Shown piece by piece: positions 2,275 through 60,222 of a stretch of 64,000 nucleotides of DNA (positions are counted from its first letter, which is position 1; every line of letters starts with the position of its first letter). The DNA comes from Mesostigma viride (Eukaryota; Streptophyta; Mesostigmatophyceae; Mesostigmatales; Mesostigmataceae): contig RPFO01000225.1 of assembly GCA_009746045.1 (NCBI GenBank), positions 979,090-1,043,089 of the forward strand, written 5' to 3'. The notes beneath the pieces are model-generated. The model ran no database searches. It was given only the letters and a program-made list of their open reading frames with translations, and was not told the origin of the DNA. The position numbers and the translations under genes are program-made.

Positions 2275-3754
2275 ATGGATGGATGACATGGACAGATGGA
2301 TGGATGGATGGCTGGCTGGATGGACGGACGGACGGATGGGCGGGCGGGCGGGCGGGCGGGCGGCGCGGGCGGGCGGGCGGGCGGGCGGGCGGGCGGGCGG
2401 ACGGGACGGACGGACGGACGGACGGACGGACGGACGGACGGACGGACGGACGGACGGACGGACGGGCGGGCGGGCGGGCGGGCGGGCGGGCGGACGGACG
2501 GACGGACGGACGGACGGACGGACGGACGGACGGACGGACGGACGGACGGACGGACGGACGGACGGACGGACGGACGGACGGACGGACGGACGGACGGACG
2601 GACGGACGGACGGACGGACGGACGGACGGACGGACGGACGGACGGACGGACGGACGGACGGACGGACGGACGGACGGACGGACGGACGGACGGACGGACG
2701 GACGGACGGACGGACGGACGGACGGACGGACGGACGGACGGACGGACGGACGGACGGACGGACGGACGGACGGACGGACGGACGGACGGACGGACGGACG
2801 GACGGACGGACGGACGGACGGACGGACGGACGGACGGACGGACGGACGGACGGACGGACGGACGGACGGACGGACGGACGGACGGACGGACGGACGGACG
2901 GACGGACGGACGGACGGACGGACGGACGGACGGACGGACGGACGGACGGACGGACGGACGGACGGACGGACGGACGAACGGATGGATGGATGGATGGATG
3001 GATGGATGGATGGATGGATGGATGGATGGATGGATGGATGGATGGATGGATGGATGGATGGATGGATGGATGGATGGATGGATGGATGGATGGATGGATG
3101 GATGGATGGATGGATGGATGGATGGATGGATGGATGGATGGATGGATGGATGGATGGATGGATGGATGGATGGATGGATGGATGGATGGATGGATGGATG
3201 GATGGATGGATGGATGGATGGATGGATGGATGGATGGATGGATGGATGGATGGATGGATGGATGGATGGATGGATGGATGGATGGATGGATGGATGGATG
3301 GATGGATGGATGGATGGATGGATGGATGGATGGATGGATGGATGGATGGATGGATGGATGGATGGATGGATGGATGGATGGATGGATGGATGGATGGATG
3401 GATGGATGGATGGATGGATGGATGGATGGATGGATGGATGGATGGATGGATGGATGGATGGATGGATGGATGGATGGATGGATGGATGGATGGATGGATG
3501 GATGGATGGATGGATGGATGGATGGATGGATGGATGGATGGATGGATGGATGGATGGATGGATGGATGGATGGATGGATGGATGGATGGATGGATCCATG
3601 GATGGATGGATGGATGGATGGATGGATGGATGGATGGATGGATGGATGGATGGATGGATGGATGGATGGATGGATGGATGGATGGATGGATGGATGGATG
3701 GATGGATGGATGGATGGATGGATGGATGGATGGATGGATGGATGGATGGATGGA
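2275..3754. repeat. 1.5-kb GGAC/GGAT tetranucleotide array
   Basis: This is a nearly pure tetranucleotide array. The left edge mixes GGGC and GGAC units (GGGC blocks near 2339-2400 and 2465-2492). About 2495-2976 is almost pure GGAC, and 2981-3754 almost pure GGAT with a single GGATCCATGG interruption near 3594-3600. The change of unit type is one sharp boundary at 2976-2981. All six frames are open only because of the repeat, so no protein is inferred. It abuts the truncated 5' side of the family B pseudogene. Confidence 0.97.
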
Positions 3755-9037: not shown

Positions 9038-12000
9038 CTATTGTGCACAAGCCTTTGGTCTTGTCCAGCCACGACCGTGCAACGCAGGCAACCTGCATAG
9101 GTCCACACTCCGGAGGATGGATACCACCGCCGGCACCATGCATGCAGCTCCAGACACACCCATAGAGACAAGGAAAACAAGGGCACTTGCCGTAAGGCTG
9201 TGGCGCGTGACCTCGGCGGTGCATGTGCCGGATGCCAGGTCCTTGCTTAGCTGCAGTTGGTGCTGCTGGCCTCGCGCCCATGTGGCGCCCAGCGCGGGTT
9301 TCATGCGACCGTCCTTCTCCACCATCTGATTGGTCACCTGCGCGCCCGACAGCCGCAAGAGTGGGAGGCAGCGCGCACAAGAGCAGAGAGCTTAAACATT
9401 CGTCATTGTAACATTAGCAGAGCTCATGGCAAATTGCAAATCAATATTTGACGATAGCAGTAGTACATGAATTTTGGTAAGGAGTCATGCACCACTCACT
9501 ATGCGCACTAGAACAGGCAAAGTGTGCACAGATGACCATGCATGGCCGCACTCACCCGCACTCATGATGCCGGCCTGACATGGATACCTTACGGTTGCGT
9601 ACATGGGTGGTAGAAAGGGGCGTTCATGATCGTGAATCCACTCGCACATGCCCCTGCACAAGTTTCAGGAAGATCATGCGCCAGGCCATGCTCGGGCAGC
9701 ACCTGGCAGCAGCCCAAGAGCAACACCACACATTGCCAGACATGAACAAGCCACCATCATCTTCGTCTACCATTGCGACCCACCCTGTCAGCTCCAACCA
9801 TGGGCAGCTTATCCTGTGTACCGGAATGCTAGAAGCGGCAGGGAACTGACATGCGGCCAGGTGGTGCAGCATGCCACCACACCAGCATACGACGAGCAGG
9901 CCCTTGCAAAACACTAGGCCAAGCGGAGGGGCGTGCGCGTGCGGGGTCATGCACCAGCACGTGATGCCATAAACTCAGTTGCTTGCAAACACGAGCACAC
10001 AGGGCTTGGGCGCGGGGCCATGCATCCGCATGGAATGGGGGAACCCATACAACCATCACTACCATCACTACACCTTGCTACACAGAGCAGAGGGCGTTCT
10101 CTACACGCGTGCGCGTACCAGCACGGCCAGGCGGTGCCGCTTGGCCATACACGCGTGCGCGTACCAGCACGGCCAGGCGGTGCCGCTTGGCCAGGAACTT
10201 GAGCGCGTGGCCGAGGGCATTCATGAGCGCGAGGCCTGGAGCGGTGACAGGGGGCAGCGGCAAGTATGTGGCCAGGGTCAGGGGGCGGCAGCGTGACCGC
10301 AAGACCCAAGGGACACAGGTGTGGGGGTCGACAGGCCTGGTGAATCCCTGCCAGCAGCGCTCCTGTGTGTTTCCTTGGACGGGCCAGGGCCACCATTTAC
10401 GCAATGTGGTGGGTTCTGTGCTCGAAAGACTGGCATGATGGCGACACGAAAATGTTTAGTGAGTATGCAAAACTTCGGCAACCCTCTCCTACTGCCATCC
10501 ACATACCCCCTCCCTTTGTGCCATCTGCCTCACCTTATGCCTGCAACCCTCTCCTACTGCCATCCGCATCAACCCCCTGCCTTTGTGCCATCTGCCTCAC
10601 CTTATGCCTGCGACCCTCTCCTACTGCCATCCGCCTCACCCCCCCCTGTGCCATCTGCGTCACCTTATACCTGCAAACCTCACCAACCACCATCTGCCTC
10701 ACCTTGTGCGTTGGGCACGCCCAACACGGGCTTGAGCACGGCTGACGCGGAGTCGATGACAAGCAGCGTGGAGAGGTGGACGGGGTTGGCCTGCACCCGC
10801 CGTGTCATGGGGCGGGGATGGGGGGGGGGAGCCGATATGTGAACAAAGCACATGGTACCACGACTCCTATCACATGGTGAAATCAAATATCGCGGATGCT
10901 GCCAATGCAACAGGTCAGTGCAGTACCTTCATGCCCGGTCAAGCGCCCGTGCTTATAAACCGCATGCCGTGCGCACAACTGGCACGCCAATGGAGAGATC
11001 GGGCCCATTACAACAACAAGCCCCGCAGGTGCCAGCAAAGCTTCAAGGGGGGGGGGTTCATGCAGCAACGGGGGCATTGCCAGCAGACGTGGCACGGACG
11101 TGTGCGAACCGCGTCTCCAGGCGCATGAAAGCGCACCAAGTGTCGCGATGCCCCGACAAAAGCTGCCCCCATCATCCGAGGACCGCAGAGGGCGTGCGTT
11201 GTGCTAGCGGCCTCAACGCCTGATAGCGGACACCGAGGCAAACTGCCTTCCCACCCAGGTATCTGCGCCCCATTGCGTGTGTATGGGAGGGAGGGCGGCC
11301 CATGGGTGTGCGGATCCAAAATATCATCTGCCATCAAGGACTTGAAGAGGAGGCATGGGCCGCGTGTCCACACCGTGGCCTGCGTGCCGCACGCCAACCC
11401 GCTGGCTCTGGTGCACGTGCCCACCTGCTCCTGCATCTTCATCGCCAGCCACTCCACCACACCCAGCAGCGAGGGCGCGTCGAACGCGTGCAGCACCGCC
11501 ACGCGCTTAAGGGCATCCGACAAGGCCTCCCGCGGCGCCGCCACCTGAGGGCACATGAGGGGGGGTGGGGGGCGGGGGCAGGGGGCGGGGGGCGGGGGGC
11601 GGGGGGCGGGGGGGGGGGCGGGCAGGGCACGCCATGGTAGAGTGCACACTATTTTTACTGCAGACTTTTGAAGAACTATCAGGCTTTTGCGCCGGCGAAA
11701 ACCTGAAAAGCAAGTAGACATGTCTGGCATGCTTCTAGCAAACGCGTGTACTTGGACGGTCGCAGAAGCCGTGGGCTGCATCCCGTCACTGCAACAGCAA
11801 GGTGCCACACGCCCGCTGCAACCAGACAGTGTGAGGCAGCGACGACATTACTTGCTGTTTCTTGGCATTAGACCTTAAGGTTAGCATTGAAATGCAAGGC
11901 ACTCTATGAACAGGGATAAAAGATAGAACACATTTGTAGCAGTGCATATTTTACAGGCAAAAACTACAGGCGAACTCATCACCTTCCCTCCTTCCTCTTC

Positions 12001-15000
12001 ATAGCTCTCTCGGGACCAGGGGGTCCGAGGGGTAGTGTGTGCCGCAATATTCCCACCAAAGTTACTCAAGCCGATCTGCATGCACGTCACCGCATGTGCA
12101 GCGAGCTTCAGAAACTACTAAACCTAGCCACGGCTCACGAGATTACGATCTCACAAGCTGCTGAATCTAGTGAAACTTGCGAATGCTCCACGAGCTTATA
12201 CAGACAGCAACAGCCGCGTCTGCACGTGCGTGTTAGCCTAGGCCACAGGCAGGCAGGCAGACAACGACCTGCCCATTGGCATCTCCGGCCGCCCATGATG
12301 GCTGCCGGCCACCGTCACCTCCCCCAGGGTTTCCACCCACTGGTGCCTGTGCCAGGTGCCTACAGCGTGTAGAAAAAGACTGGCAACCGTGCCACATAAT
12401 TCAAAAAAACTAGACACCATCCCAATTGGCTTTCATGCACTACCAGCACCACCCATGCACAAGGCACGCACCTGAGGGTCCCTGGCCCGCAGCATGTGCC
12501 GGCACATGAGTGAGAGGCGCTGGGGGCTGAAGGTGCCGCATGTGTCGACGAACACCACACGCGCCGTGTCATGGGACGTCACTGCACTGGCAGCCGCGCT
12601 GAACACCACCTGTCAAGCCGTGGATGATTGTCACGGGGTGTCGGGTACGAGTGAGGCACGGCATCGATGGAGGGCGCGGTCGCTTGTGTGCCGGTACCGA
12701 TGGACACCCACGTGAATGCATGCCATCTAGCACACATGCAGCACACGCATGAATGCCAAGCAGTGTCCCGTGCAGCACGCACAGGATTGAATGTACCTGA
12801 GAGTATCCACGCAGCCGCTTCAACGAGCGTTGCACATGCATCAACCGCACACAGACAAGAACAGGAAGGAACAAGGGGCAGTCACTCGTGGGAAATGGAC
12901 GCGGCCGTCCCCCTGGTGGCCGGGTCGCCACCGCGCCGCCCGCAGATGGGCCAACCGTGATCACGGGGATGACGTGAACGGTGGTAGAAGGCCTGCCATG
13001 AGTGCGCCATACTAGGTGTGCCAATAGGCGTGCCATGAGCAGGCGAGCCAGGGAGAATGGGCACCATCAAATAACCCAACAGGGGCCCACCCTTGGCATC
13101 CCCCAACATCGGATCCCTGGAATCGCCGGTCCGACAGGCCCAAACCAACGGGTAGGCCCCTGGCTTCGCGCTTAACCCTTAGTCCGCTGACCCATTTTTG
13201 GCACTTTCATACCCCTGAAAATAAAAAAATTCATAACTCCCAGGCCACAACTCCAAATACCCCCAGCCAAGATGCTAGGAGTATCTACACTTCAAGGGCT
13301 TTCAGACTATGCATTAATACCTTGGCTCTATCAAAGCATTTGGATGATAGCTCTACTCAAAGTCGGCCAAAAGACGATCCTTTTTTCCCAAGGAAAAGTC
13401 TACCCCCCCCTAGCTTCCCAGGTAGGGTGGGGAATCTCAATACCAACATTGGACAACTTCGTTGGATAGTCCAATGGTGGTTTCCTTGGGTCAGACCACC
13501 CGGATGACCCATTAGACCCATACAAGGTGCTCATTTACGTGTGTGGGTTACGCGCGCGTAAATAGCCATCTATGACATGCAATACAAGAATGCATTATAA
13601 CAAGCTATAAAAGATTGCCAAAGGTGCTGGAATACAAACATGTTGCCTACCTGCATTAACGAAATGACATGCTCCAAAGAAATGCCATAAACTGGTCACT
13701 TTGAGGGCTAATACCGCTCTTTACAGCAGGCATGGAAGCTTGCTGAAAGGTGCACTAATAAGCTCGTCAAATATAATGCATGGGAGACGTATTCCGCTGC
13801 AAAGGACACGCAAACACGTTGCCGTACCCGGCTCGTTCATGTCCTGCCCGGATTCCACTGGCTGGGACCCTCATATCTCACACATACCGTTGCTTTACAG
13901 GCATAGGTCGCCATAGCCGCATCATGCATGCATCCTTTATGATTACCAGGTTGATGCTGCGTTCAAAGATTACCAATAAACGCGTCCGCATTCCCAGCAA
14001 ACGCATCAGCGGACATCCCGTACCAAATGTGGATGCTTGGGCTGGCGCAGACTGCCCGGCCATGAGGATAAAATGGAAATATGATAAGCGATTACTCATC
14101 TGGCACTGAGTACACTGTGTCACGACCAAGAAGGCAGTATTTTTCCACCTGAATTTTCCCAATCCTACCAGTTTGGCCATGCCTGACCTACGAAAATCAC
14201 GCATCATCATTCTGAGCAACATTCTAAACCGTTTCTAGCCGCGAGACGCAAAATCTCCCTGATAACGGCACGTTGGCAGCCATATCTCGTTGCGCGCGCG
14301 CGAGTGAAAATTTCCCGCCAAAGTCACGTGACCCCCTATGATTACAGCCCTATAATTACCAGGCTATGGCGGATATTACCCCCAAACCTATGCATCACCT
14401 TCGTCCCTAAGTGTTCCCGGACCCACCGGACAACTGTCCACCGTCACAAGTGGCGTGGCGCTCTCGGCGCGGCGCGAAATTCGACCGTTAGTCAACCCCC
14501 CCGACAGGTCGGGGGGGTAGCGGACTATGGGTTAAGGATATCAAAGTCATATTTGAGCCCTGGATTGGCTCCCTACCTACAAGGTCGCAGCACTGGTCGG
14601 TCGGACCCATTCTTAAAGGTGAAGCTAGGTGTGTTGAGCGACCGGGCTGCGCTACAAGGCAGAGGCATAGCGCGGTAACTACCAAATCTTTGAAGCGACG
14701 ACGGTCATGTTGGGTCGTACGGGGCACTTTGTACCCTGGTGAGGGGTACACCCATGTACCCTGATTGGCACACGTGAGGAGGGCTCAGACACGCCCCATG
14801 CAGCGCAGCTGCGATGGTGGCACGAGCACAAAGCAGCGCCGGTTGCTGGTCGGTGCATGCTGACATGTTCAGGCCGAATTCCTATGTTTCGTGTCCAGCA
14901 TCGCCCTGGGCACATGGTCCATCCACATGCAGTAGCACCCACCCGCCTACCTGTGTCTTGGCTCCCCACCCACCTACCTGCTCCCCACCCGCCTACCTGC

Positions 15001-18000
15001 GTGTTGGCTCCCCACCCGCCTACCTGCGTGTTGGCTCCCCACCCGCCTACCTGCGTCTTGGCTCCCCACCCGCCTACCTGCGTCTTGGCTCCCCACCCGC
15101 CTACCTGCGTCTTGGCTCCCCACCCGCCTACCTGCGTCTTGGCTCCCCACCCGCCTACCTGCGTCTTGGCTCCCCACCCGCCTACCTGTGTCTTGGCTCC
15201 CCACCCACCTACCTGCGTCTTGGCTCCCCACCCGCCTACCTGCGTCTTGGCTCCCCACCCGCCTACCTGCGTGTTGGCTCCCCACCCGCCTACCTGCGTG
15301 TTGGCTCCCCACCCGCCTACCTGCGTCTTGGCTCCCCACCCGCCTACCTGCGTCTTGGCTCCCCACCCGCCTACCTGTGTCTTGGCTCCCCACCCACCTA
15401 CCTGCGTCTTGGCTCCCCACCCGCCTACCTGTGTCTTGGCTCCCCACCCGCCTACCTGCGTCTTGGCTCCCCACCCGCCTACCTGCGTGTTGGCTCCCCA
15501 CCCGCCTACCTGTGTCTTGGCTCCCCACCCGCCTACCTGCGTCTTGGCTCCCCACCCGCCTACCTGCGTCTTGGCTCCCCACCCGCCTACCTGCGTCTTG
15601 GCTCCCCACCCGCCTACCTGTGTCTTGGCTCCCCACCCGCCTACCTGCGTCTTGGCTCCCCACCCGCCTACCTGTGTCTTGGCTCCCCACCCACCTACCT
15701 GTGTCTTGGCTCCCCACCCGCCTACCTGCTCCCCACCCGCCTACCTGCGTCTTGGCTCCCCACCCACCTACCTGCTCCCCACCCGCCTACCTGCGTCTTG
15801 GCTCCCCACCCGCCTACCTGTGTCTTGGCTCCCCACCCGCCTACCTGCGTCTTGGCTCCCCACCCGCCTACCTGTGTCTTGGCTCCCCACCCACCTACCT
15901 GTGTCTTGGCTCCCCACCCGCCTACCTGCTCCCCACCCGCCTACCTGTGTCTTGGCTCCCCACCCGCCTACCTGCGTCTTGGCTCCCCACCCGCCTACCT
16001 GTGTCTTGGCTCCCCACCCGCCTACCTGCGTCTTGGCTCCCCACCCGCCTACCTGTGTCTTGGCTCCCCACCCGCCTACCTGCGTCTTGGCTCCCCACCC
16101 GCCTACCTACGTCTTGGCTCCCCACCCGCCTACCTGCGTCTTGGCTCCCCACCCGCCTACCTGTGTCTTGGCTCCCCACCCGCCTACCTGCGTCTTGGCT
16201 CCCCACCCGCCTACCTGTGTCTTGGCTCCCCACCCGCCTACCTGCGTCTTGGCTCCCCACCCGCCTACCTGCGTCTTGGCTCCCCACCCGCCTACCTGCG
16301 TCTTGGCTCCCCACCCGCCTACCTGTGTCTTGGCTCCCCACCCGCCTACCTGTGTCTTGGCTCCCCACCCGCCTACCTGCGTCTTGGCTCCCCACCCGCC
16401 TACCTGTGTCTTGGCTCCCCACCCGCCTACCTGCGTCTTGGCTCCCCACCCGCCTACCTGTGTCTTGGCTCCCCACCCACCTACCTGTGTCTTGGCTCCC
16501 CACCCGCCTACCTGCTCCCCACCCGCCTACCTGTGTCTTGGCTCCCCACCCGCCTACCTGCGTCTTGGCTCCCCACCCGCCTACCTGTGTCTTGGCTCCC
16601 CACCCGCCTACCTGCGTCTTGGCTCCCCACCCGCCTACCTGTGTCTTGGCTCCCCACCCGCCTACCTGCGTCTTGGCTCCCCACCCGCCTACCTGCGTCT
16701 TGGCTCCCCACCCGCCTACCTGCGTCTTGGCTCCCCACCCGCCTACCTGTGTCTTGGCTCCCCACCCGCCTACCTGTGTCTTGGCTCCCCACCCGCCTAC
16801 CTGCGTCTTGGCTCCCCACCCGCCTACCTGTGTCTTGGCTCCCCACCCGCCTACCTGCGTCTTGGCTCCCCACCCGCCTACCTGCGTCTTGGCTCCCCAC
16901 CCGCCTACCTGTGTCTTGGCTCCCCACCCGCCTACCTGTGTCTTGGCTCCCCACCCGCCTACCTGTGTCTTGGCTCCCCACCCGCCTACCTGCGTCTTGG
17001 CTCCCCACCCGCCTACCTGCTCCCCACCCGCCTACCTGTGTCTTGGCTCCCCACCCGCCTACCTGCGTCTTGGCTCCCCACCCGCCTACCTGCGTCTTGG
17101 CTCCCCACCCGCCTACCTGCTCCCCACCCGCCTACCTGTGTCTTGGCTCCCCACCCGCCTACCTGTGTCTTGGCTCCCCACCCGCCTACCTGCGTCTTGG
17201 CTCCCCACCCGCCTACCTGTGTCTTGGCTCCCCACCCGCCTACCTGCTCCCCACCCGCCTACCTGTGTCTTGGCTCCCCACCCGCCTACCTGCGTCTTGG
17301 CTCCCCACCCGCCTACCTGCGTCTTGGCTCCCCACCCGCCTACCTGCGTCTTGGCTCCCCACCCGCCTACCTGCGTCTTGGCTCCCCACCCGCCTACCTG
17401 TGTCTTGGCTCCCCACCCGCCTACCTGTGTCTTGGCTCCCCACCCGCCTACCTGCGTCTTGGCTCCCCACCCGCCTACCTGTGTCTTGGCTCCCCACCCG
17501 CCTACCTGTGTCTTGGCTCCCCACCCGCCTACCTGCGTCTTGGCTCCCCACCCGCCTACCTGTGTCTTGGCTGCCCACCCGCCTACCTGCGTCTTGGCTC
17601 CCCACCCGCCTACCTGTGTCTTGGCTCCCCACCCGCCTACCTGCGTCTTGGCTCCCCACCCGCCTACCTGTGTCTTGGCTCCCCACCCGCCTACCTGTGT
17701 CTTGGCTCCCCACCCGCCTACCTGTGTCTTGGCTCCCCACCCGCCTACCTGTGTCTTGGCTCCCCACCCGCCTACCTGCGTCTTGGCTCCCCACCCGCCT
17801 ACCTGTGTCTTGGCTCCCCACCCGCCTACCTGTGTCTTGGCTCCCCACCCACCTACCTGCGTCTTGGCTCCCCACCCGCCTACCTGTGTCTTGGCTCCCC
17901 ACCCACCTACCTGCGTCTTGGCTCCCCACCCGCCTACCTGTGTCTTGGCTCCCCACCCGCCTACCTGCGTCTTGGCTCCCCACCCGCCTACCTGCGTCTT

Positions 18001-20881
18001 GGCTCCCCACCCGCCTACCTGTGTCTTGGCTCCCCACCCGCCTACCTGCGTCTTGGCTCCCCACCCGCCTACCTGTGTCTTGGCTCCCCACCCGCCTACC
18101 TGCGTCTTGGCTCCCCACCCGCCTACCTGTGTCTTGGCTCCCCACCCGCCTACCTGTGTCTTGGCTCCCCACCCGCCTACCTGTGTCTTGGCTCCCCACC
18201 CGCCTACCTGTGTCTTGGCTCCCCACCCACCTACCTGCGTCTTGGCTCCCCACCCGCCTACCTGTGTCTTGGCTCCCCACCCGCCTACCTGCGTCTTGGC
18301 TCCCCACCCGCCTACCTGTGTCTTGGCTCCCCACCCACCTACCTGCGTCTTGGCTCCCCACCCGCCTACCTGTGTCTTGGCTCCCCACCCGCCTACCTGC
18401 GTCTTGGCTCCCCACCCGCCTACCTGTGTCTTGGCTCCCCACCCGCCTACCTGTGTCTTGGCTCCCCACCCGCCTACCTGCGTCTTGGCTCCCCACCCGC
18501 CTACCTGCGTCTTGGCTCCCCACCCGCCTACCTGTGTCTTGGCTCCCCACCCACCTACCTGCGTCTTGGCTCCCCACCCGCCTACCTGTGTCTTGGCTCC
18601 CCACCCGCCTACCTGTGTCTTGGCTCCCCACCCGCCTACCTGCGTCTTGGCTCCCCACCCGCCTACCTGTGTCTTGGCTCCCCACCCGCCTACCTGTGTC
18701 TTGGCTCCCCACCCGCCTACCTGCTCCCCACCCGCCTACCTGCGTCTTGGCTCCCCACCCGCCTACCTGCGTCTTGGCTCCCCACCCGCCTACCTGCGTC
18801 TTGGCTCCCCACCCGCCTACCTGCGTCTTGGCTCCCCACCCGCCTACCTGCGTCTTTGCTCCCCACCCGCCTACCTGCGTCTTGGCTCCCCACCCACCTA
18901 CCTGCGTCTTGCCCACCGCGGATGTGCCGACCAGCTCAGTGACCACCCCCACGCGCAGCCCACCGCGCAGGAGGGCGTCCAGGCTGCGGGGCCATGAGCG
19001 GGGCACGCAAGGGGTGCATGCAAGGGGGCCACGCAAGGGGGGCACGCAAGGAGGACAATGGAGGACACCGCACGGCTGAATGCCAAGTGAGCCACAGGGA
19101 GAGGGGCAGCATATGGCTTGGTGGGGGAAATGGGTATGGGGGACAAGAGAAGCCACCGGCGCGGGGTGAAGATGTAGGGTGCGGCTTCCCACAGGGTCCA
19201 AGAGCGGGTACAGGGGAAATCGCATGGCAGACAGGCACACACACATGTGCCTGCCTGCGCATTCAACAGGATGGGAAGCACTACTCCGAAGAGAAGGCTT
19301 GGAGGTGGGGGCGACCCTTGGAGCCACACAAGCAACCTGCCATCCTGGCGCCAGCAGTCCTTGTACACCACTTAGGCCTGGCCAGAACTAGCCAGGGTTT
19401 GGCCATGCCATAGTATGCAGCACGGTATGGTCTAGACCAGCCCGCCTGATGCTTTCTTGGCGCTGGAATCTCAAGCACCGTGGCAAGCCATGGCTGGCAT
19501 CCGGCAATACACGATGGACGGACGGACGGGTAGACGGACGGACGGACGGACGGACGGACAGGCGGGCAGGCGGGCGGGCGGATGGAGTTACCACGGTGAT
19601 CGTAACTAATAGATTGCATCATGGAAATCAACACACGCACAATGACACCTGACTGGCGGCTTATGTGGGTCCCACATCCCTTACCTGGCACACCCTGTGG
19701 AGACCGCATGCCCCATGCACGCCGCACTGCCTCCTGGCGCATCCGTTAGGGCCCCATCACCGCCGGTGGCAGAAGCGCCCGCGAGCGGCGTGGGCACAAG
19801 CAGCACATAGTTGCTGGTCAGGTAGCGGGAGACAGCATCCAGCATCTGCGCGGGAGGAGAGGGATGCAGGGAGGCATGGGGGAACGCGGCGCCGCGAGCA
19901 GAGAGGAGCGGACAAGAGCCGGCAAATCGGGAGCTCATTGACGCGGCATGCACGCAAAGAGACCACTTAGCAAAACTCCGTCCAACGGTTACAGGAAAAA
20001 AACGTAGGAATATGTAGGATGCCCGGCACCTGTTGATAGGGGACTGGATGGGCACCGCGGGTCCGGCCCCTCATCCCCACATCACTCACACATGGAAGCC
20101 GAGGCAAGCCCACCAGTCCCGCCAGGGTACACAGGTGCCTCTGCGCAGGGAAGTAAACCGTTCCTATTACTTACTGTGGAGTGGATGAGGTATGTTCCTA
20201 GCCATCCGTTGCTGCAACTGTGTGCTTGATTCCCTACCTCCTTCACGGCGGCGGCGCTCTCATGGCCAGGTGCCTGCAGCATGGAGGTATCCCAGAGGAT
20301 GTAGTCCTCCACTGCGGGCATGGGGCACGGTAGGTATGCATAACAAGCATGGGGGAAAATAAAATAAACCAGAATCATGTGTCTTGACAGCATGAGGTGT
20401 CCCACAGGATGTGATGCTCGATTCACTGCAGGCATTACACACGGATACAGACACCACAACACACACAGTGTGAGCATACGGCGATAAGGTCAAGGATTAG
20501 CTTCATGAGGGATAGACATGGCTAAGCTGCACATCTCAGTATGCACAGAGACCTTGGATGCCATTACGCCAACACCATAACGTAGAATGGAATTGCAATT
20601 GCATGATTCGCTTGAACTTAATACGAGTTCAGAACCTTGCTTCAACTTCTCATTAGTAAAAAGGTATATGCACGGCAAAAAACGAATCCTCTGTAACTTG
20701 CGATCGCTGATTTGATTTGGTCAGCAGCAGGACAGTTTTCGGCAGGCGAGAAACCGCAGTGCAGCTGTTTTCTCGCAAGTTCAAGAAGTTTTACACCTCG
20801 TGGGAACTCACCGGTATGCACTCCATGGCGCGCAAGTTGCAGCACTACCTCAGGAGCAAGTCCTGTGGCGGACAAGTTCAT
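9038..20881 (-). CDS. RAD51D: RAD51D-like DNA recombinase paralog, ten exons
   Basis: Exons read on the minus strand: 20881-20812, 20311-20238, 20140-20090, 19845-19685, 18983-18902, 12609-12472, 11544-11425, 10790-10703, 10235-10165 and 9337-9038. Splice phases agree at every join, giving about 384 residues. The start MNLSATGLAPEVVLQLARHG and the split HGVHT-VEDYILWDTSML form an N-terminal helix-hairpin-like region. Walker A is GTSAVGKT (about 138-145), the VVFVDT strand is near 164-169, and Walker B is LLVID (about 241-245). The block HRLAVL-VTNQMVEKDGRMKPALG follows. Order and spacing match RAD51D, an ATPase of the RAD51 paralog complex that assists RAD51 loading in homologous recombination. 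RAD51D proteins are usually about 320-330 residues, so the last exon may end earlier, for example at a GC donor near 9190. It diverges from the coiled-coil gene at 21834. Family assignment is firm; ortholog identity among RAD51 paralogs is slightly less so. Confidence 0.88.
10102..10193 (-). repeat. 46-bp tandem duplication across RAD51D exon 9/intron junction
   Basis: Two direct copies (10102-10147 and 10148-10193) each contain the end of exon 9 (encoding HRLAVL) and the GTACGC donor. The exon-proximal copy supplies the real exon end at 10165; the other lies in the intron as a decoy exon end with donor. Confidence 0.92.
10478..10715 (-). repeat. ~65-bp tandem array containing the RAD51D exon 8 donor sequence
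   Basis: About three and a half imperfect copies of a 60-67-bp unit. Each contains CATCTGCCTCACCTTATGCC-type sequence, which on the gene strand reads AAGGTGAGGCAGATGG. This is nearly identical to the true exon 8 end and donor at 10703/10702 (ACAAG, then GTGAGGCAG). The array thus repeats the splice donor region into the intron. Confidence 0.75.
11552..11636 (-). repeat. Poly-G/C tract in front of RAD51D exon 7 acceptor
   Basis: Runs of G on the plus strand (C on the gene strand) lie directly upstream of the exon 7 acceptor at 11545. On the transcript this is an over-long pyrimidine tract of CCCCCCGCC-type units. Confidence 0.8.
13172..14535. mobile_element. Non-autonomous piggyBac-like element, TTAA target site
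   Basis: Inverted termini CCCTTAGTCCGCTGACCC (from 13176) and, read in from the right end at 14531, CCCATAGTCCGCTACCCC are each flanked by TTAA (13172-13175 and 14532-14535). Termini beginning CCC next to a duplicated TTAA are the hallmark of the piggyBac superfamily. The 1,356-bp body contains no frame with convincing transposase features, so it would need a transposase supplied elsewhere. It sits inside the RAD51D intron that also holds the giant minisatellite. The TIRs are short and imperfect, so chance is not fully excluded. Confidence 0.72.
14937..18901 (-). repeat. ~4-kb 27-bp minisatellite seeded by the RAD51D Walker A exon/donor junction
   Basis: Roughly 145-150 units. On the gene strand each unit begins with GTAGGCGGGTGGGG and ends with CCAAGACGCAG, the exact junction sequence of exon 5 (AAGACGCAG, then GTAGGTGGG). 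In frame, a unit reads KTQVGGWGA, so the exon's KTQ codons recur in every unit. About nine shortened 19-bp units shift the frame. Common variants are ACGCAG/ACACAG and GTAGGC/GTAGGT. The very long open frames across the array are by-products of the 27-bp period and are not called as genes. Confidence 0.95.
18902..18983 (-). other. RAD51D: RAD51D exon 5 with Walker A
   Basis: An 82-nt exon preceded by a CCCCGCAG acceptor. It encodes LDALLRGGLRVGVVTELVG followed by the P-loop TSAVGKTQ. It ends in AAGACGCAG and is followed at once by a GTAGGTGGG donor. That junction is the seed sequence of the 4-kb minisatellite in the next intron. Confidence 0.92.
20311..20426 (-). repeat. Degenerate tandem duplicate of RAD51D exon 2 start
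   Basis: About 114 bp upstream of exon 2 on the gene strand, at 20425, a second CTGCAG acceptor is followed by sequence resembling exon 2 (ATCCTGTGGGACACCTC against ATCCTCTGGGATACCTC). The upstream copy is frameshifted relative to the real exon and its reading frame does not continue, so it is called a dead duplicate. Confidence 0.65.
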
Positions 20882-30800: not shown

Positions 30801-33800
30801 GCGAGCACCCTAGCCGAGCGATCGCGGCAACAGGCCGACGAGACGGCCCAAGAAGCCAAGCGGTGGCAGCAGCAGCTGGCGGCGGTGGAGGCGGAGCTTG
30901 AGGATGTGCGTGGCGAACTGGCGACGTCACAGTCTCACGTGCGCACGTTGGAGGCGCGCCAGCAGCAGCTGTGCGACCAGCGCGAGGAGGAGATGACAGT
31001 GCTGGACGAGACGGTCGTCAGCTGCAAGAGGATGCGCAACCGGGCGGTGCGGCACGTAGCGCTCGCGCGCACGCTGAGGGCGCGCCGCTACCGTGCGCTG
31101 GTGCTGGCCGCCGCCACCCGTGTGGAGAACAAACGGCTGGCTTCGGCGCTGGCTGACAGCCTTGCGCGTGCTGAGGTTGCGGCAGTGGCGGCGGCGCAAG
31201 CGGAGGCGCATGCGATTGCGGCGCAGGAGGAGAAGACAGCTGCGCAGGAGGAGGCGCGCGCACAGGCAGGGGTGGTGGGACAGCTGGCACGCGCTGAAGA
31301 GGACAAGGCGCGGCTGTCGGGCATGCTGGCGGCGGCAGTGCGCGTGAACGAGCAGCTGGAGGGCGAGCTGGCACGCATGCGGGACCAGGGGGCCAAGGAC
31401 AGGTGAGGAGGGAGAGGATATCTGACCACGTGCTGCCGAGAAGATACAATCCTCCCTCGAAAAGTGCTGGGATGCGGCGTGCTGGTGGCTCCAGGCAAGG
31501 GACCCGATCCCCGCTTACCGAGGGATGCGCGCTGCAACCACTCATTTAAAGGCCACCGCGCGCTGTTTGCGGGCGGATCCCTTGGACATGAGGCGTAGTC
31601 AGGAGACGATGGTGGTGCACTGGCCATGGTGCCATGCAGGCTAGAAGCGTGGAGTCCCGTCCCTCAGGACCAACGGTCGCCTTGGTGAAGGCGAGTGTGC
31701 CGCGGCGGCCCAGGCGGGGTGCCCAGCTGGCTGCTTGTCACCGCACTTGCCACCAGTGGTCTAGGGCCTGCACTTGCGATGGCTGGCTCGCTCAGATATG
31801 CACCGCATGGCAGGGCCCCAGATGCCCTGACCCTGCATTGTGCATGCCAGCATGGCTTACGGGACCATGTTGTGTATTGATAATGATGCTGGCTTTGGAG
31901 GATGACCTGGCATGTCGCAACAACCCCTGACCAAATGGCGTGTCTATGGACCCACGCAGCGGAGCAAGTCCCCTCCGCACGCTCTGATTGCTGCGTGTAT
32001 GCTGGCAGACGCATGCCTATCCACTCTGGTGGCAAAACAGGACACGGGGCAGGATGCACCCGACAGGACGGGCGTACTCCGTGCCCATCCCACCGCCCCC
32101 ATGGTGCCCCATCTAAATATATATATATATATAAATCCCAATCTGTGCCTTGCCCACCTGGCCCCCCCCACCCAGGAGTGAGCTTCTTGCTCTGGCGGAG
32201 GACGCAGCCGGCAGCGTGGCCGCACAGCTGAGGGAGGCACGCCGCGTGTGGGCGCACGTGGAGCAAGTGCGGCAGCAGGGGGTTGGGGGGCAAGCGACCG
32301 AGGGCCACCATGCCGGCACGCAAGGCCAGCGCGCACAAGCAGAGGGGGATGAGCACGATGACAGTGAGAGCGAGGACATGGGAGGGGCGTTTGAGGGGTC
32401 CGCACTTGTGGCAGATGACAGCACGGCAACCAGCGCCAGGCCCACTGACGCCAGCACAAGGGAAGACGACACCCATGGTCAGCTTAGCACGACCGCGGCA
32501 GTTGCGTTGATGGCTTCTCCCACGCAGCTGGCACCCTGGCATCCCCTGGCCCCTCCATCCCCTGGCGCCCCCCTCTCATCGCTGTCCATGATCGACGATG
32601 TGATGCGCACGTGGCGCGATGCGTGTGCGCGCAAGGATGTGCAGATTGCCGCGCTGATGGAGGAGTGCACGGGGACCCGCCGCGTGTGCCAGCAGTTGCA
32701 GCAGCAGCTGGTCGCAAGCGAGGGGCGGGAGGGCGCGCTGGCCACCCAGCTGGACGGGGCCAGGGCTCACGCGCAGCAGGCTGAGGCGCGGCTTGCAGAG
32801 GTGTGCGCGCAGCTGGATGCCACCACGGCCGCGCTGGAGCGCGCCAACCGGCAGCTGGAGGAGTGGCAGGGACAGCTGGCGGCCACGCAGGGGGAGCTGG
32901 ACGCGCGCCGCGCGGAGTTGGAGAGGGTGTCATGGGAGGCATCCGCCAGCGCAGAGGAGGCGCGGCGAGTGGAGGCGCTGCTTGCGGGTAAGGCAAACAC
33001 GTCTGTCGTGTATCGACGAGTGGATGTGTGGGAACCCCTTCATGTGCAAAGAAATTGGGACATGTGGCGGGTGTGTGGTGGGGTTAGATGGTTGTGCAAC
33101 AACCCATGTTAGCTGTTTCTTGCGATAAGCCTGGGCATGTCGATGCACACCAGCATGCGGCTACTAGTTGCATGCGCCATCGCGCTCCCTGCCCTGTCCT
33201 GTATTGTGGGTGGATGGCCGTCGAAATGCCACCATGCCCGCCCCAAGTGAGATGCCTTAGAGGGTGCCCCCCCATTGGTCACCAAGGGGAGCAGGGGCCT
33301 GTCCTCGGCTGTGTGTGTTGCACAGTATGGCCCCCCCACACAGCCTGCCATTGTGCGGGGAACCCTTTTGACAGTGGCTGCACTTCTCATCTCCCCTGGT
33401 CTTGTGCAGAGCGGGATGGCGAGCTGGCAGCTGTGCGCGAGCAGCTGCACCGCGCAGACCTACAGCTAGCAGACGCCACCACCCGCCTGGAGGACACTGT
33501 GGGCCAGCTGGCGTCGGCAGTGGCGCGATGCGAGGAGCTGACAGGTGATGTGCTGGCGGCACGCGCGCACGAAGCCGCGCTGGAGGCGGCGCTGGGTGCT
33601 GCCCGGGCCAGCGCTGAGGAGAGGCAGGAGGCGTTGGAGGAGAGTCGGGCGGTAGGCGCACGGCTGCAAGGGGCGCTGGACGCAGCGCATGCCCAGCTGA
33701 CCCAGGTGACGGCAGACAGAGACGACGCGCGCACAGACTGTCTCCACCTGGAAGCACGGCTGGGCGTGGCGGACGGCCTGTGCGAGCAGCTGCGGGGGGA

Positions 33801-36800
33801 GGTGGCGGACGCCAGCGCGCGATGCACGCAGTTGGAGGCGGAGCGCGATGTCTGCGAGGACACCTGTCGACGCCAGCAGCAGCAACTGGCGGATGTCACC
33901 GTGCGATGCGGCGAGATCGAGGAGCAGGCCGCCTCTCTGGCAGCACGGGGAGGACAGCTGGCGCAGGCGCTGGAGGCATCCAACGCGCGCTGCGTACAGC
34001 TGGACCTGCTGCTTGACGCCGCGCAAGAGGAGGGTCGCACGGCGCTCGAGACGGCCCAGGCGGGCGCGCAGCGTGGGGAGGAGCTCGACGGGGAGCTGCG
34101 TGGCGTGCGGCAGGCGCTGGCGCTGGCGTCGTTGCGCGCGGACGCGGCCGAGAGGGCGGAGGTGGACACGTCGGCACGGCTGGTGGAGGTGGAGGCAGCC
34201 GCCAGTAGCGCACGTGCCACCGCCGAGGAGCACGCGCGCTCGCTCTCCTCTATCCAGGTAACGTGCGGAGGATTCCCTGTATCCATGCTAAGTGCGCAGG
34301 AGCTACCTTTTCTTCTGTTAATGGTGGCAGTTCCAGGGGGGGAGAACATGGCTAGCGCGGCTGGACATGAGCCCCCTGGCATGTCCACAGGGGGCAAGTG
34401 CATAGAGGCTGCAGGTCTTCTACCCCCCTCATTGATGGGTGGTAGAGGACAGGGGCAGCGTCGTGACGGTGACCGCAGCCCAGGGGATGGTCGTCCTCAG
34501 ATTCTCTCACCGCACCATCCATGCTTGTTGTCATCGTGCATTGGCCTTTCGTCGTTGGCAGCGGCCGTCCCATGCGTGGACGCTCTTACGATGGGCATTC
34601 TTCCGGCATGTGCTTACGTGTCGTCGTCCTCCCCCCTCTTGCTGCTCGCTTGTTCCCCACTGCCGCTTGTACTCGTGCGCAGGAGGCCTGGAAGCGTTCG
34701 GCGGCAGAACTGGAGGCGGCCGAGGAGAGGGCCGCGGGTTTCGGTGCCGCGCTCACCTCCTGCCTGTCCGCCATGCGTGCGGCCTCTCTGCAGCTGGGGC
34801 AGATCCAGGCAAGGGGCAGTGCCGCACCGGCTGATGCTGATGCCGATGCTGGTGTTGATGACGGCATCGGTGACGGCAGCCAGCGTGAGGGGAGCCAGGG
34901 GGTGCCTGCCATGGCCGCCACACCTGTGCACATGGGCACGGAGCATGCGGGCGGTGGCGCCGTGCCCGCAGGGTTGTGCTGGCCGCGGGACATGGAAGCT
35001 GCTCGCTCGGACGCCACCACGTGCAATGTCGATGGCGTCCGTATCGAGGAGCAACGGCTAGCGGTGGCGGTTGCGGGCGTCGCGGTTTTGCTGGCATCCG
35101 TGCGGTCACAAGCCAACGCGACAGATCAGCAGCTGACCGATGCGGTGCGTGCTGCCCGGTGGCGTGGATGCACTCGCTGTATGTGGGGCGCTTTGCTACA
35201 GGGGTTGCGCTCAAGCCTGCATCTAGCAGGTGTCCATTACAATGACATGCTAGCAAACGCATCGCCCTCACACGTACAATCCATACCTTGCAGCAAAGTC
35301 GTGTTGCGAAGTCCCTTTAGTTTGGTGGGCAGCCGTGGATATGTCTCCTTCCCCCTCCGTGTGCACTGGCCTCCCACCCTGCGCTCACCCCCATGCGTGG
35401 CCATGCATGGCTGGCCGTGATGGATGCCCCACGCTCCCATGCTCCACCAGCTGGCGGCCACATTTGAGAGCAAGGAACTGCTGGCGGCCGCTTCGCAAGC
35501 ACGCGCCCTGCTGGAGCGCCAGCTGGCCGATGCGGTGGACGCCAGGGAGGAGGCCGGGCGCCAGCTGGCAAAGGTGCGAGCGCAGGAACAAGCGGCCATC
35601 GCTGCTGCTGCTGAGGGCAATGCCCAGGTGCATGCCATCCTGCATTGCTTACAAGGGGACGGTGAAGATGTGTCAGCACTTGCACCAGGCATGGGGGATG
35701 ATGTCAGCGAACACGCTGAAGTTGCCCATGACGCCCCAGCACCTGTCGTGTCGCTGGGCGCTGCCTTGGGTGACATCGCTGTCACCGCCCAGGCAGCGCG
35801 GGCGAGGGCCGAGGGGCGCATGGGAGAGCTGGCGCTGCTGCGGGCGTGGGCCAGTGACCATGAGGCCGCCGCAGCGGATGTTGCCGAGTCGCTGCGGGCG
35901 TCGCAGCAAGCACAGGAGGAGACATCAGCGGCCCTGCAGGAGACCGCGTTGCGATGTGCTGCGGCGGAGCAGGACCTGTTTCTGGCATCTGCAAACCTGC
36001 ACCAGGCAAGGGAGGAGCGCCAGGTCGTGGAAGCGCAGCGCGACGAGCTAGCCCAGCAGCTGGCGGCCGTGCGTGATGAGCTGGCACGCACGGCGCAGCA
36101 GGCGGGAGCGGACCAGCAGGAGGTGGCGGCGCTGCAGCAACAGCAGGAACAGCTGGAGGAGGAGGTAGAGGAGCTCATGGCCCAGCTTGAAGGCAGGGCC
36201 GCCGTGTTGGCATCGATGGAGGGGGAACTGGCGAGGGCGCGGGAGGACACTACGGATGCCAGCAACAGGGCGCGGCGACTTGCTGAGGAGCTTGCGTGCG
36301 CGGAGGAGAGGGTCGCATCCCTCGAAGTGCGTATTTGTTGTGGGTGCAACGGGCACACTTCTGTGTGTTTTGGCTGCCCGTACATGCCCTGTTTGTACTG
36401 TGCCACGTCAGCGTGTGTCAGCGTGCGTTTTCCCCATGGCTCCTGTTCCTCCGATGCGCATCGACCCAACTCCACATACACGTCTCATGTCGAATGGCTG
36501 CATCTTGCCTTACCTCATGCCCCCCTGTGTCTGCCTCATGTCGCCCACGTGCCCGGTTCCCCATCCCCCATCCCCCATCCCCCATCCCCCATCCCCCATC
36601 CCCCATCCCCCATCCCCCATCCCCCATCCCCCATCCCCCATCCCCCATCCCCCATCCCCCATCCCCATCCCCCATCCCCATCCCCCATCCCCCATCCCCA
36701 TCCCCCATCCCCCATCCCCCATCCCCCATCCCCCATCCCCCATCCCCCATCCCCATCCCCCATCCCCCATCCCCACCCACCCCCCACCCCCCACCCCCAC

Positions 36801-39800
36801 CCCCCCCCACCCCACCCCCCACCCCACCCCCACCCCCCACCCCCCACCCCACCCCACCCCCCACCCCCACCCCACCCCCCCCCCCACCCCCCCACCCCCC
36901 ACCCCCACCCCCCACCCCCACCCCCCCCCCACCCCCACCCCCCACCCCCCACCCCACCCCCACCCCCACCCCCCACCCCCCACCCCCACCCCCACCCCCA
37001 CCCCCCCCACCCCACCCCCCACCCCACCCCCACCCCCCACCCCCACCCCCCACCCCCACCCCCACCCCCCACCCCCCACCCCCACCCCCACTCCCCAGCC
37101 CCACCCCCATCCCCCATCCCCCATCCCCCATCCCCCATCCCCCATCCCCCATCCCCACCCCCACCCCCCATCCCCCATCCCCATCCCCATCCCCCATCCC
37201 CACCCCCATCCCCCACCCCCCAGGCCCAGCTGCAACACGAGAGAACCGCAGCCAACGCCCAGTCCTCGATGGCCGCAGCACACGCGCAGCGAGTGGCCAC
37301 GCTGGCGGTCACGCTGCGCGCCGCCACTGCCGAGCTGAGGCAGGTGCTGCCTGCCCATGGGGAAGGAATGGCGGGGGGACCCGGGGAAGAAGAGGCGGGC
37401 CTGGGTGTCCCGAGTGAAGGCAGCGAGGAATCGCTCACAATGCCGCGGCTGCTGCCACCACCGGGAGAGGAGGCACCGGTCCTCCCGCTGGCGCGATGGA
37501 CTCACTCCCCCAGCAAGTCCCCATTATCTGGTGGCGTGGTGGAGCACCCACACCCTCTGGTCCTCACGATGGGCAGGGACAGGGACCGTGGCAGCAACAG
37601 CAACGATACCGACAACAGCAACAGCGACGGTGACGCGGCCGTGGGCGCCTCCCTGCTGCGCGTGGTGGCGGAAGTGGTCGCGCGGTCTATCGCGCGTGAG
37701 GCACAGCTGGCGGCCGCCAAGGTGCAGGCACAGGCGACCACCCCCTTGGTGCGTGTGCCCATGTTGGCTATGTGGATATTGTGTGCGTGTGGTGTTGGGG
37801 GGGGGGCATGCGCGGCCCGGCACAATTGACTGCACGGAGTACAAGGGGGGCTACGGGCTCTACGGTGGGTCGGGGGGGAGACCCCCTTGGTAGGACAGCT
37901 GGGTGCCACCGCGAATACTGCGGCCCGCCCCGCCTGCCATCAACCCACCCCGCGAGTACACAACGCATGATGACCGTGCCGCAGGGCCTAGGACACCCAC
38001 GACATGTTGAGGCCCTGCCATGCATGCTCCATCCAGCAGGACCGCAGGTGGCCGGGGAAATCATGCAGCCTGTGCCTCTGCATGCTTAGCTGCCCTATTC
38101 ACGGCTTCGTCACCTTCCGCGGCACAACGTGGTTTGGCCACCAGTATCTGCTGACAGCTGGCACGTGCGGGGCCAAACTGACTGACCGTGCGAGTCCCAC
38201 CCCAAGTACTGGCCCGCCGCCTGATCCATCAGGACAGTTGTACGCTGTGGCTCACAACGGTACTCACTCATCTTTGCTTGCCTTCCCTGCCATTCCTGTG
38301 GCTTGTTCCCCCTTGACACCTGCTTGGCTGCCGGATGAGAGCAGAAAATCTGCGACGGTGCGCTGCTGCCGCAAGGCGGGGGCCGGCTGCGGCTGCTGCC
38401 CGCCGGCGTGGCCACCCCACGCTCCCCTGCACTGCACTGCACCCCAGAGAGAGGGCGGTACGCCTTGGACAAGATGACAGCCGACAGCACCGACGGGGAG
38501 GTTTCCGAGGCAGGCGGCGCGCTGGTGCCTGTCACGGTAGAGGAGGTGGTGGACATGTGGCGGTGCGCGTGCCAGCACAGGGAGGACCTGCTGGCCGCCG
38601 CAACCGCGCGGCTAGAGGAAAGCACCCAGCAGGCGCTGCAGCTGGAGGCAGACGTGGAGGATGCGCGGGCAGCGCTAGAGGCAGCGGCCGCAGAGCACGC
38701 AAATAGGGCGCAAGAGCTTGCGCGGCAAGCCGAGGCGGGGCGGGCGGAGCACGACCAGCAGCTGCGCGCCGCGAGGGCGGCGGTGGTGGCGGCAGAGGCC
38801 AGCGCGGGGGTAGCCGAGGAGCGGCGCCGCACGCTGGAGGCGGCGCTTGCCGAGTCGCAGTCGCGTGCGCGCCAGTTGGGCGAGGACCTGGCGCAGGTGC
38901 GCGCGGCGCTGGCAAGGGAGCAGCGCGCGCGGGAGGCGGCGGCGGCCGCTTGTGGGGACGCGGAGGCGCGGCTGGCGTCCGCAGAGGCCGGCACACGTGC
39001 CGACATGGCAGAGGCAGAAGCGGCGGTAGCTGAGATGCAGACGGTGCTGCTGCGAGCAGAAGAGCAGCGCACACACGCGAAGGCAGAGGTGGCGGTGTTG
39101 CAGGGGGCGCTGGAAGGGGAGCAGCGCAGGGCAGGCGAAGCGATGGCGGCGGCGGCCCGCGCCCAAGCCACGTGCACGGAGGCAATGGAAGAGCTACAGA
39201 GGGCCACCGTGGCGCAGGCAGCAGTGGTGCGGGAGAAAGAAGCAGCCGAGGCGCGCGCGGCGGCGCTGAATGCGGAGCTGGAGGGCGCCACCCTGCTGGG
39301 GGCCAGCCTGAGGGCGGCGTTGCAGGTGGCAGAAGCAGCGGCCAGGGATGCGGCGGTGCGCGAGGCGGCCACCGTGTCCCAGCTGGCGGCGGCGGAGGCA
39401 GCGGCGGGCGAGGTTGCGACGCTGCGATCCGCGTTGGAGCGTGCGGAGGCGCAAGAGAAGGCCGCGCTGAGGAAAGTGCGGGATGTGCAGGTGAGGGCGC
39501 ACGGCAGTGGGTGGGTTGGGGAGAGGGTTGGGGCCTGGAAGCACAAGGAAGGTGCTGGAGGACGCTCGATGCACATGCGCTAGTGCAAGGAGCACTGCCA
39601 AGGGGGGGAGGCTCGCAGATGAGGGCAGCAACTGGGTAGGCAGCAGGAACCGCTGGCTGCTGTCACCGGTGCTTCTGCGCTCCTCATGGCACCCCCTAGC
39701 ATAGATAGCACTGCCAGCGCGTGATGTCGTTGCGGTTCCGATGCATGTCCATGAGGCGCGCCTCCTGTGGGCATGCACGGCCGGCCCCACCCACGCACCC

Positions 39801-48603: not shown

Positions 48604-49631
48604 ATACCAGTAAGGCTTGCATCACTCCCCGGACAGGAGAACTTTTGCGGATGACTGTAGGTGTAAGTTGGCGATGCCATGGTAACCGGAGACGTCCGTC
48701 CTATAGTCAGCAAAATTGGTGCGAGAGGTCCCCAGTTCGATTCCGGTCGGATTCATTTGCAGATCGCGTTTTCCGCGTTTTCCGCGGCCCGGCACTGAAC
48801 GCAAAGGTTTTCACCTTTGCGGAGTGTCTGATCAGAATATACGCTTGGCTGATTTCGATAGTACCGGCTACGCCCCCTTCTAAAGAAGGATTCAGCCGTG
48901 TTCAGCCCGTCTCACGGTGCGAGACTGAACAAGTCTCGCGTGCAGACACGTGTGTAGTACTCCTACACACAGATCTCGAGTGATTTATCTAGTACCAAAT
49001 CCGAAAGGCTTGCATCACTCCCCGGACAGGAGAACTTTTGCGGATGACTGTAGGTGTAAGTTGGCGATGCCATGGTAACCGGAGACGTCCGTCCTATAGT
49101 CAGCAAAATTGGTGCGAGAGGTCCCCAGTTCGATTCCGGTCGGATTCATTTGCAGATCGCGTTTTCCGCGTTTTCCGCGGCCCGGCACTGAACGCAAAGG
49201 TTTTCACCTTTGCGGAGTGTCTGATCAGAATATACGCTTGGCTGATTTCGATAGTACCGGCTACGCCCCCTTCTAAAGAAGGATTCAGCCGTGTTCAGCC
49301 CGTCTCACGGTGCGAGACTGAACAAGTCTCGCGTGCAGACACGTGTGTAGTACTCCTACACACAGATCTCGAGTGATTTATCTAGTACCAAATCCGAAAG
49401 GCTTGCATCACTCCCCGGACAGGAGAACTTTTGCGGATGACTGTAGGTGTAAGTTGGCGATGCCATGGTAACCGGAGACGTCCGTCCTATAGTCAGCAAA
49501 ATTGGTGCGAGAGGTCCCCAGTTCGATTCCGGTCGGATTCATTTGCAGATCGCGTTTTCCGCGTTTTCCGCGGCCCGGCACTGAACGCAAAGGTTTTCAC
49601 CTTTGCGGAGTGTCTGATCAGAATACCAGTA
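48604..49631 (+). repeat. 393-bp tandem units (about 2.6 identical copies) with 9-bp flanking duplication
   Basis: Units begin near 48614, 49007 and 49400 and appear identical. The array interrupts the family A 3' UTR and is bounded by ATACCAGTA on both sides (48604-48612 and 49623-49631), a likely target-site duplication. Each unit has several inverted repeats: GCAAAGGT-TTTC-ACCTTTGC, GTTCAG...CTGAAC around a TCTC/GAGA stem, and GTGTGTAG/CTACACAC. Each also has AGTTCGATTCC (48734-48744 in unit 1), close to a pol III B box, with a weak A-box-like GTAAGTTGG about 60 nt upstream. A tRNA-derived SINE is possible; no cloverleaf could be drawn. Older diverged units lie at 5642-6390. Confidence 0.85.
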
Positions 49632-59460: not shown

Positions 59461-60222
59461 AGCCATGGCTGTCATGGCTATCATGGCTGTCATGGCTGTC
59501 GTGGCTGTCATGGCTGTCATGGCTGTCAAGGCTGTCATGGCTGTCATGGCCGTCATGGCCGTCATGGCCGTCATGGCCGTCATGGCCGTCATGGCCGTCA
59601 TGGCCGTCATGGCCGTCATGGCCGTCATGGCCGTCATGGCCGTCATGGCCGTCATGGCCGTCATGGAAGTCATGGAAGTCATGGCCGTCATGGCTGTCGT
59701 GGCTGTCGTGGCTGTCGTGGCTGTCGTGGCTGTCATGGCCGTCATGGCCGTCATGGCCGTCATGGCCTTCATGGCCGTCATGGCCGTCGTGGCCGTCGTG
59801 GCCGTCGTGGCCGTCGTGGCCGTCGTGGCCGTCGTGGCCGTCGTGGCCGTCGTGGCCGTCGTGGCCGTCGTGGCCGTCGTGGCCGTCGTGGCCGTCGTGG
59901 CCGTCGTGGCTGTCGTGGCTGTCGTGGCTGTCGTGGCTGTCGTGGCTGTCGTGGCTGTCGTGGCCGTCATGGCCGTCATGGCTGTCATGGCCGTCATGGC
60001 TGTCATGTCGTGGCTGTCGTGGCTGTCGTGGCTGTCGTGGCTGTCGTGGCTGTCGTGGCTGTCGTGGCTGTCGTGGCTGTCGTGGCTGTCGTGGCTGTCG
60101 TGGAGTGTCATGGCTGTCATGGCTGTCATGGCTGTCATGGCTGTCATGGCTGTCATGGCTGTCATGGCTGTCATGGCTGTCATGGCTGTCATGGCTGTCA
60201 TGGCTGTCATGGCTGCCATTGT
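59461..60222 (+). repeat. 9-bp minisatellite, (C[A/G]TGGC[C/T]GT)n
   Basis: About 84 units of 9 bp. Four unit types, CATGGCTGT, CATGGCCGT, CGTGGCTGT and CGTGGCCGT, occur in homogeneous blocks rather than mixed. Rare variants include CATGGAAGT and CATGGCCTT, plus a few indels (near 60005 and 60104). It translates as MAV/VAV repeats in a long frame, but nothing beyond the repeat supports a gene. Confidence 0.95.

Follow-up and report, generated by a model that had tools for sequence, protein, structure and literature searches.

A donor-anchored 27-bp minisatellite in intron 4 of RAD51D in the alga Mesostigma viride

The RAD51D gene and its neighbourhood

The window analysed here, a stretch of 64,000 nucleotides of DNA from Mesostigma viride, a streptophyte alga that branched off early, carries a RAD51D gene on its minus strand (Table 1). 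The spliced minus-strand protein matches the JGI Mesvir1 models Mv16514-RA.1 (P0001) and RA.2 (P0002), with a reported identity of 100%. The best match within the RecA/RAD51 family is RAD51D, as the first-pass annotation had proposed: a phmmer search of the PDB placed RAD51 homolog 4 (human RAD51D, 98 bits) above a RecA fusion (50 bits) and RAD51 (45 bits), and pear RAD51-like 4 is 35% identical to P0001 over 307 aligned columns. The Walker A motif (GxxxxGKT) is found in P0001 as GTSAVGKTQ. Its residues G126, K127, T128 and Q129 are invariant across three aligned proteins, and KTQ is common to human and pear RAD51D and a fish RAD51C-type protein. The 3′ end of exon 4, which encodes this motif, is GGCAAGACGCAG, and the intron opens with GTAGGTGGG; the longer stretch 3′ of the exon reads GTAGGTGGGTGGGG.

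Table 1. Positions in the window of RAD51D features and of the repeats that reach its donors (a slash marks an exon–intron junction)
Feature	Position	Strand	Basis
RAD51D gene, nine coding exons, model Mv16514-RA.1 (P0001)	9041..20881	-	exact spliced mapping
RAD51D exon 4, encodes ...SLDALLRGGLRVGVVTELVGTSAVGKTQ (Walker A), 82 nt	18902..18983	-	exact P0001 mapping
Exon 4's own donor CAG/GTAGGTGGGT; U1 pairing predicted at -12.9 kcal/mol, top among 31 annotated donors	18892..18904	-	
27-bp minisatellite, 150 donors	14938..18911	-	Tandem Repeats Finder and unit count
RAD51D intron 4, 6292 nt, of which ~4.0 kb is array	12610..18901	-	P0001 mapping
RAD51D exon 5 (VVFSAAASAVTSHDTARVVFVDTCG...), follows GKTQ directly in P0001	12472..12609	-	P0001 mapping
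~67-bp repeat at the start of RAD51D intron 7	10478..10703	-	repeat calls
46-bp stretch over the exon 8 end and its donor, duplicated in tandem, both copies identical	10102..10193	-	repeat calls and mapping

At the other end of the gene, the model of the last exon (~9190–9090, minus strand) may read through a GC-AG intron (ACG/GCAAGT). The residues that would follow such an intron, VACVARSWLDK, resemble the C-terminus of human RAD51D, which we take to be MACLAKSSRQ. The neighbouring gene, Mv16515, is coiled-coil-like and lies on the plus strand, where one of its introns holds a C-rich CCCCATC array (36559–37222) that reaches the 3′ splice site at 37223. Its isoforms RA.4 and RA.1 are distinguished by the exitron-like removal of 378 nt (32267–32644) and 219 nt (35574–35792), both multiples of three and both inside exons; these differences between isoforms suggest that the gene models are RNA-based. 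Other large arrays in the window are built of GGAC (~359 copies, 2318–3754), of a 393-bp unit (2.6 copies with 100% matches, 48612–49625) and of CATGGCTGT (~84 copies, 59464–60219).

Structure of the array and repeats at other donors

Intron 4 of RAD51D opens with a minisatellite for which Tandem Repeats Finder gives a period of 27, 149.9 copies and 93% matches. Its unit starts with the final 10 bases of exon 4 (CAAGACGCAG) and goes on with the first 17 bases of the intron, and this 27-bp stretch recurs about 150 times along the intron. On the minus strand there are 150 donors of the form GTAGG[C/T]GGG (the true donor and 149 decoys), in agreement with the 145–150 copies of exon end and donor estimated in the first-pass annotation, and all 150 units carry a donor-like GT in a donor context. 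The sense strand is G-rich, also as described earlier. By length, 140 units are of 27 bp and nine of 19 bp, with one partial. The earlier statement that the array repeats exactly this junction is right for the exon end and the donor, but the units are not all the same: ten types are interspersed, CAG/GTAGGC is found in 136 of the 149 decoys, with C at +6 in place of the T of the true donor, and ACACAG, rather than ACGCAG, closes 65 of the 150 units. Substitutions between units amount to 2.3% per site, with 78 of 86 falling at two positions. Units 1–6 end in ACGCAG, as does exon 4, while ACACAG first appears at unit 8 and ACGCAG units continue throughout. The longest series of unit types to occur more than once has 12 units, against a mean of 7.8 and a maximum of also 12 in 500 shuffles; block-wise growth of the array is suggested, if weakly.

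On the plus strand, antisense to the array, all three frames stay open between 14743 and 19079, with ORFs of 1353, 1399 and 1433 codons that are probably spurious. Annotators should be aware that an array of this kind can produce open frames as long as these on its antisense side. G-quadruplexes were considered for four units and set aside, as the folding energies predicted by ViennaRNA with and without them (-34.8 and -32.1 kcal/mol) differ too weakly; the predicted quadruplex is two-tier and straddles the junction.

Repeats also span donors elsewhere in RAD51D. The repeat in intron 7 carries the donor context AAG/GTGA four times, at 10702 (the true donor), 10663, 10600 and 10533, and the duplication at exon 8 copies the donor once. 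The frequency of such cases was assessed on 31 annotated donors, 8 from RAD51D and 23 from the neighbour, the latter taken from its isoforms RA.1 and RA.4 combined, with the two exitron-like introns left out. A tandem repeat crosses four of the 31 at a score of at least 16 and three at a score of at least 20. The number expected is 2.86 from intron interiors (P 0.33) and 0.395 from exon interiors, where none of 400 draws reaches the observed count; when RAD51D intron 4 is left out, the intron-interior expectation is 2.30 (P 0.42). One of the 31 acceptors is crossed. Donor junctions are therefore like the interior of introns with regard to repeats, and are not a hot spot. An apparent enrichment at donors on the minus strand, in a comparison of 25 donors from exons predicted here with coarser controls, was gone under the better control. 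In the Mesostigma genome, 30.1% of intron space is taken up by repetitive elements, according to the available text of its description (PMC6947507). At one of the four crossed donors, that of intron 7 of the neighbour, the copy lacks the GT. Duplicated GT donors thus number three of 31 and are all in RAD51D (3/8 vs 0/23), a contrast with a hypergeometric probability of 0.012 that was calculated by hand, post hoc and on small numbers.

Donor strength, reading frame and donor use

Pairing with U1 was predicted, with the caveat that a generic U1 5′ end was used, and on this scale the 149 decoys comprise 136 at -10.7, 12 at -12.9 and one at -9.1 kcal/mol. Scored unit by unit, predicted pairing is thus normal or better throughout the array (-9.1 to -12.9 kcal/mol), in keeping with the earlier suggestion that each unit offers a donor. 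The decoys at -10.7 kcal/mol outrank 25 of the 31 annotated donors of RAD51D and its neighbour in predicted pairing. The first decoy to equal the true donor (-12.9 kcal/mol) is that of unit 14. A T at +6 occurs in 13 of the 150 units, and its presence in the exon 4 donor could be due to chance.

The proposal that the 27-bp period keeps the reading frame (KTQVGGWGA) until a 19-bp unit breaks it holds for the first six decoys, as units 1–6 are of 27 bp and unit 7 is the first of 19 bp. These six, in frame and free of stops, would add 9 to 54 residues to the protein. The rest of the 149 divide into 56 that shift the frame yet meet no stop within the array and 87 whose use would run into a stop.

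The annotated protein P0001 joins GKTQ to VVFSAAA, which means that exon 4's own donor is used and that the protein contains no array sequence, although this could just reflect a preference of the annotation for the conserved splice at this intron. A query made of exons 1–4 continued in the frame of the array gave three matches, none of them a RAD51D entering the array, among the 7996 top word-sharing, length-limited candidates. The RA.2 model starts inside exon 5, so it is not informative on intron 4. Use of a decoy-type donor is annotated in RAD51D only at exon 8, in this same model that starts downstream of intron 4: RA.1 uses the donor at 10164 and RA.2 the distal copy at 10118, by which RA.2 is frameshifted. 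Both copies are identical and of weak predicted U1 strength (-4.1). As a distal duplicated donor is used there in an annotated isoform, decoy use in intron 4 would be plausible by analogy. Work on competing donors has often found the intron-proximal one to be used, which would predict inclusion of the array. In the part of the Mesostigma genome report available, the annotation, which may be the one labelled Mesvir1, is described as having used PASA with long-read cDNA, and the number of PacBio cDNA reads is given as 10.5 million (PMC6947507). With 149 near-identical donors beside the true one, the locus offers a natural test of how 5′ splice sites are chosen by strength and distance.

Probable origin and tolerance of the array

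The interpretation that we consider likely is that of a donor-anchored intronic minisatellite which is mostly a tolerated by-product and may cost some correct splicing. The array would have started from a single tandem duplication across the exon–intron junction of an old intron, and would have grown through slippage and block-wise unequal exchange. Its tolerance could be explained by the exon 4 donor, which is the strongest predicted U1 site in the neighbourhood and the closest to the 82-nt exon; exon recognition would pick this donor and, if the strongest and nearest donor wins in this way, the array would leave with the intron. If one of the first decoys were used from time to time, nine residues per unit would enter the protein directly behind the P-loop and probably inactivate it, and use of farther decoys would shift the frame. 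Tolerance is supported by the finding that junctions bear repeats as introns do (4/31 vs 2.86 expected), and a low retention of decoy units in human ABCA7 (2 ± 1% in the available text of PMC5954066) would point the same way. Against it stands the RAD51D isoform in which the distal duplicated donor of exon 8 is used. A long array may also be costlier than proposed here, if the length-dependent skipping of ABCA7 exon 19 is a guide.

With regard to the source of the repeat, the KTQ encoded by the shared bases is present in related proteins, and so the exon is likely to be the source and the array the copy. It is very unlikely that the array instead arose from unrelated intron sequence and came to match the exon by convergence or by conversion of exon bases. 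The exon shares only 10 bases with the unit and there are many other minisatellites in the window, as such an origin would allow, yet the shared bases keep to the register of the repeat at the splice junction and belong to constrained coding sequence, a coincidence with a chance of about one in a million (4^-10 for a 10-base in-register match, by hand arithmetic), and donor-spanning repetition recurs in RAD51D introns 7 and 8, where it includes 7 and 29 exon bases. Whether a tandem duplication could have made intron 4 itself, by intron gain through duplication of AGGT and with expansion later, is a related question. The units contain the AGGT that this model needs, and a boundary-crossing duplication is described as having given rise to an intron in a potato RdRp gene in the accessible part of that report (PMC4974935). 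In human RAD51D, however, c.345+2 lies within the exon 4 donor and c.343 within the Gln115 codon, according to the available text of PMC8201001, and a hand count on the phmmer alignment places Gln115 at the Q of GKTQ. An intron thus directly follows the GKTQ codons at the same position and phase in Mesostigma and in human RAD51D, the one outgroup examined, where intron 4 is present rather than absent. Given this sharing, the intron probably does not owe its existence to the array; most likely, intron 4 is old and the array grew into it, a parallel gain being a less likely alternative. The units are also without a usable acceptor: upstream of the 149 CAGs there are 3–5 pyrimidines in 17 positions, against 7–14 at the eight annotated RAD51D acceptors. 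The lack of a pyrimidine tract counts further against intron gain, which we regard as highly improbable. Recursive splicing was ruled out on the same ground.

The favoured reading, a tolerated by-product, has also to be weighed against a functional one, in which the decoys compete for U1 and the length of the array sets the amount of functional RAD51D, with the in-frame isoforms lengthened by nine residues and the frameshifted, decay-prone isoforms as by-products. Copy-number tuning of RAD51D splicing is possible by analogy with ABCA7, where a longer VNTR is accompanied by reduced expression and by increased skipping of exon 19 (PMC5954066, in the text available), and it would fit both with the 136 decoys predicted to be stronger than 25 of 31 annotated donors and with the use of the distal exon 8 donor in RA.2. 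The same ABCA7 report states that single-unit retention is independent of VNTR length, however, and no array-entering RAD51D protein was found among the candidates scored; repeats cross donors no more than intron interiors, which gives no sign of selection for donor placement. On balance we judge such a regulator unlikely. Its self-referential extension, a rheostat in which homologous recombination, with RAD51D among its factors, determines how long the array in RAD51D becomes, this length governs decoy use directly behind the P-loop codons, and in-frame P-loop-extended or truncated RAD51D feeds back on recombination, would be scarcely credible. An error of assembly or annotation, with the array length or the exon end wrong, would be conceivable in a 4-kb near-identical array that is hard to assemble and known from one assembly. 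Ten unit types are interspersed in the array, two RAD51D and two neighbour annotated proteins map exactly (none of them across the array itself), and the PacBio subread N50 of 11.2 kb given in the accessible text of PMC6947507 exceeds the array, if that assembly is the same as this one; there is thus very little probability left for an artefact.

Comparison with known donor-including repeats

The first-pass annotation had called a self-derived donor array unusual, which overstates the case, as the human genes ABCA7 and CBS carry VNTRs that include a donor. In the available text on ABCA7 (PMC5954066), the intron 18 VNTR has a 25-bp unit, its first GT is the exon 18 donor and it ranges from ~12 to 427 copies; single-unit retention by way of a decoy donor amounts to 2 ± 1% irrespective of VNTR length, while exon 19 skipping is 12–45% by tissue and rises with length as expression falls. 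Alternative forms together exceed the canonical one in some brain tissue (PMC5954066), and such arrays therefore need not be harmless. ABCA7 is like the RAD51D array in that the repeat includes the true exon donor. It differs in that its 25-bp unit shifts the frame, where the 27-bp unit of RAD51D keeps it for six copies, and in that its VNTR is described as starting at the GT, with exon bases unmentioned in the text available, where the RAD51D array includes 10 exon bases. The RAD51D array also lies in another gene and another kingdom.

The human CBS VNTR, c.1444_1467+7(16_21), has a 31-bp unit (PMC2630376, PMC1395315, both in the parts available). By these coordinates it covers the final 24 coding bases of exon 13 and the first 7 bases of the intron, so that, as in RAD51D, an exon tail is repeated together with its donor. 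CBS has 16–21 copies, against 150 in RAD51D. An effect of this VNTR was reportedly described by Lievers et al. in 2001. In potato RdRp, a tandem genomic duplication across an intron–exon boundary made an intron, as far as the accessible text describes it (PMC4974935); as in RAD51D, a splice junction is spanned and its splice signals are duplicated, but there it was a single duplication with a new intron as its result, whereas in RAD51D ~150 units stand in an intron that is most likely old.

A predicted LepA/GUF1-like protein from ENA (P0006) may point to a second such array in another gene. Its residues 43–71 match LepA weakly (E 4.7e-4; 18.6 bits against a family cut-off of 533.9, as expected for a fragment) and end in ...ITVKAQ. 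The KAQ is followed by eight 9-residue repeats, VGG[RWQ][GDS]H[KR][AT]Q, and this part is matched by repeat-rich designed proteins. Judged from the protein, the repeat would share with the RAD51D array a 27-bp period and an exon-like tail joined to GTNGG. It looks as though a gene model has read through a donor array here, but the repeat may also be truly coding. Among the titles and beginnings of abstracts surveyed, no algal repeat that includes a donor was found, which does not prove the absence of one. The RAD51D array is a further case of a donor-anchored intronic minisatellite of the ABCA7 and CBS type, large but not unprecedented, and it adds an algal example to a kind of repeat that, in ABCA7, matters in human disease.
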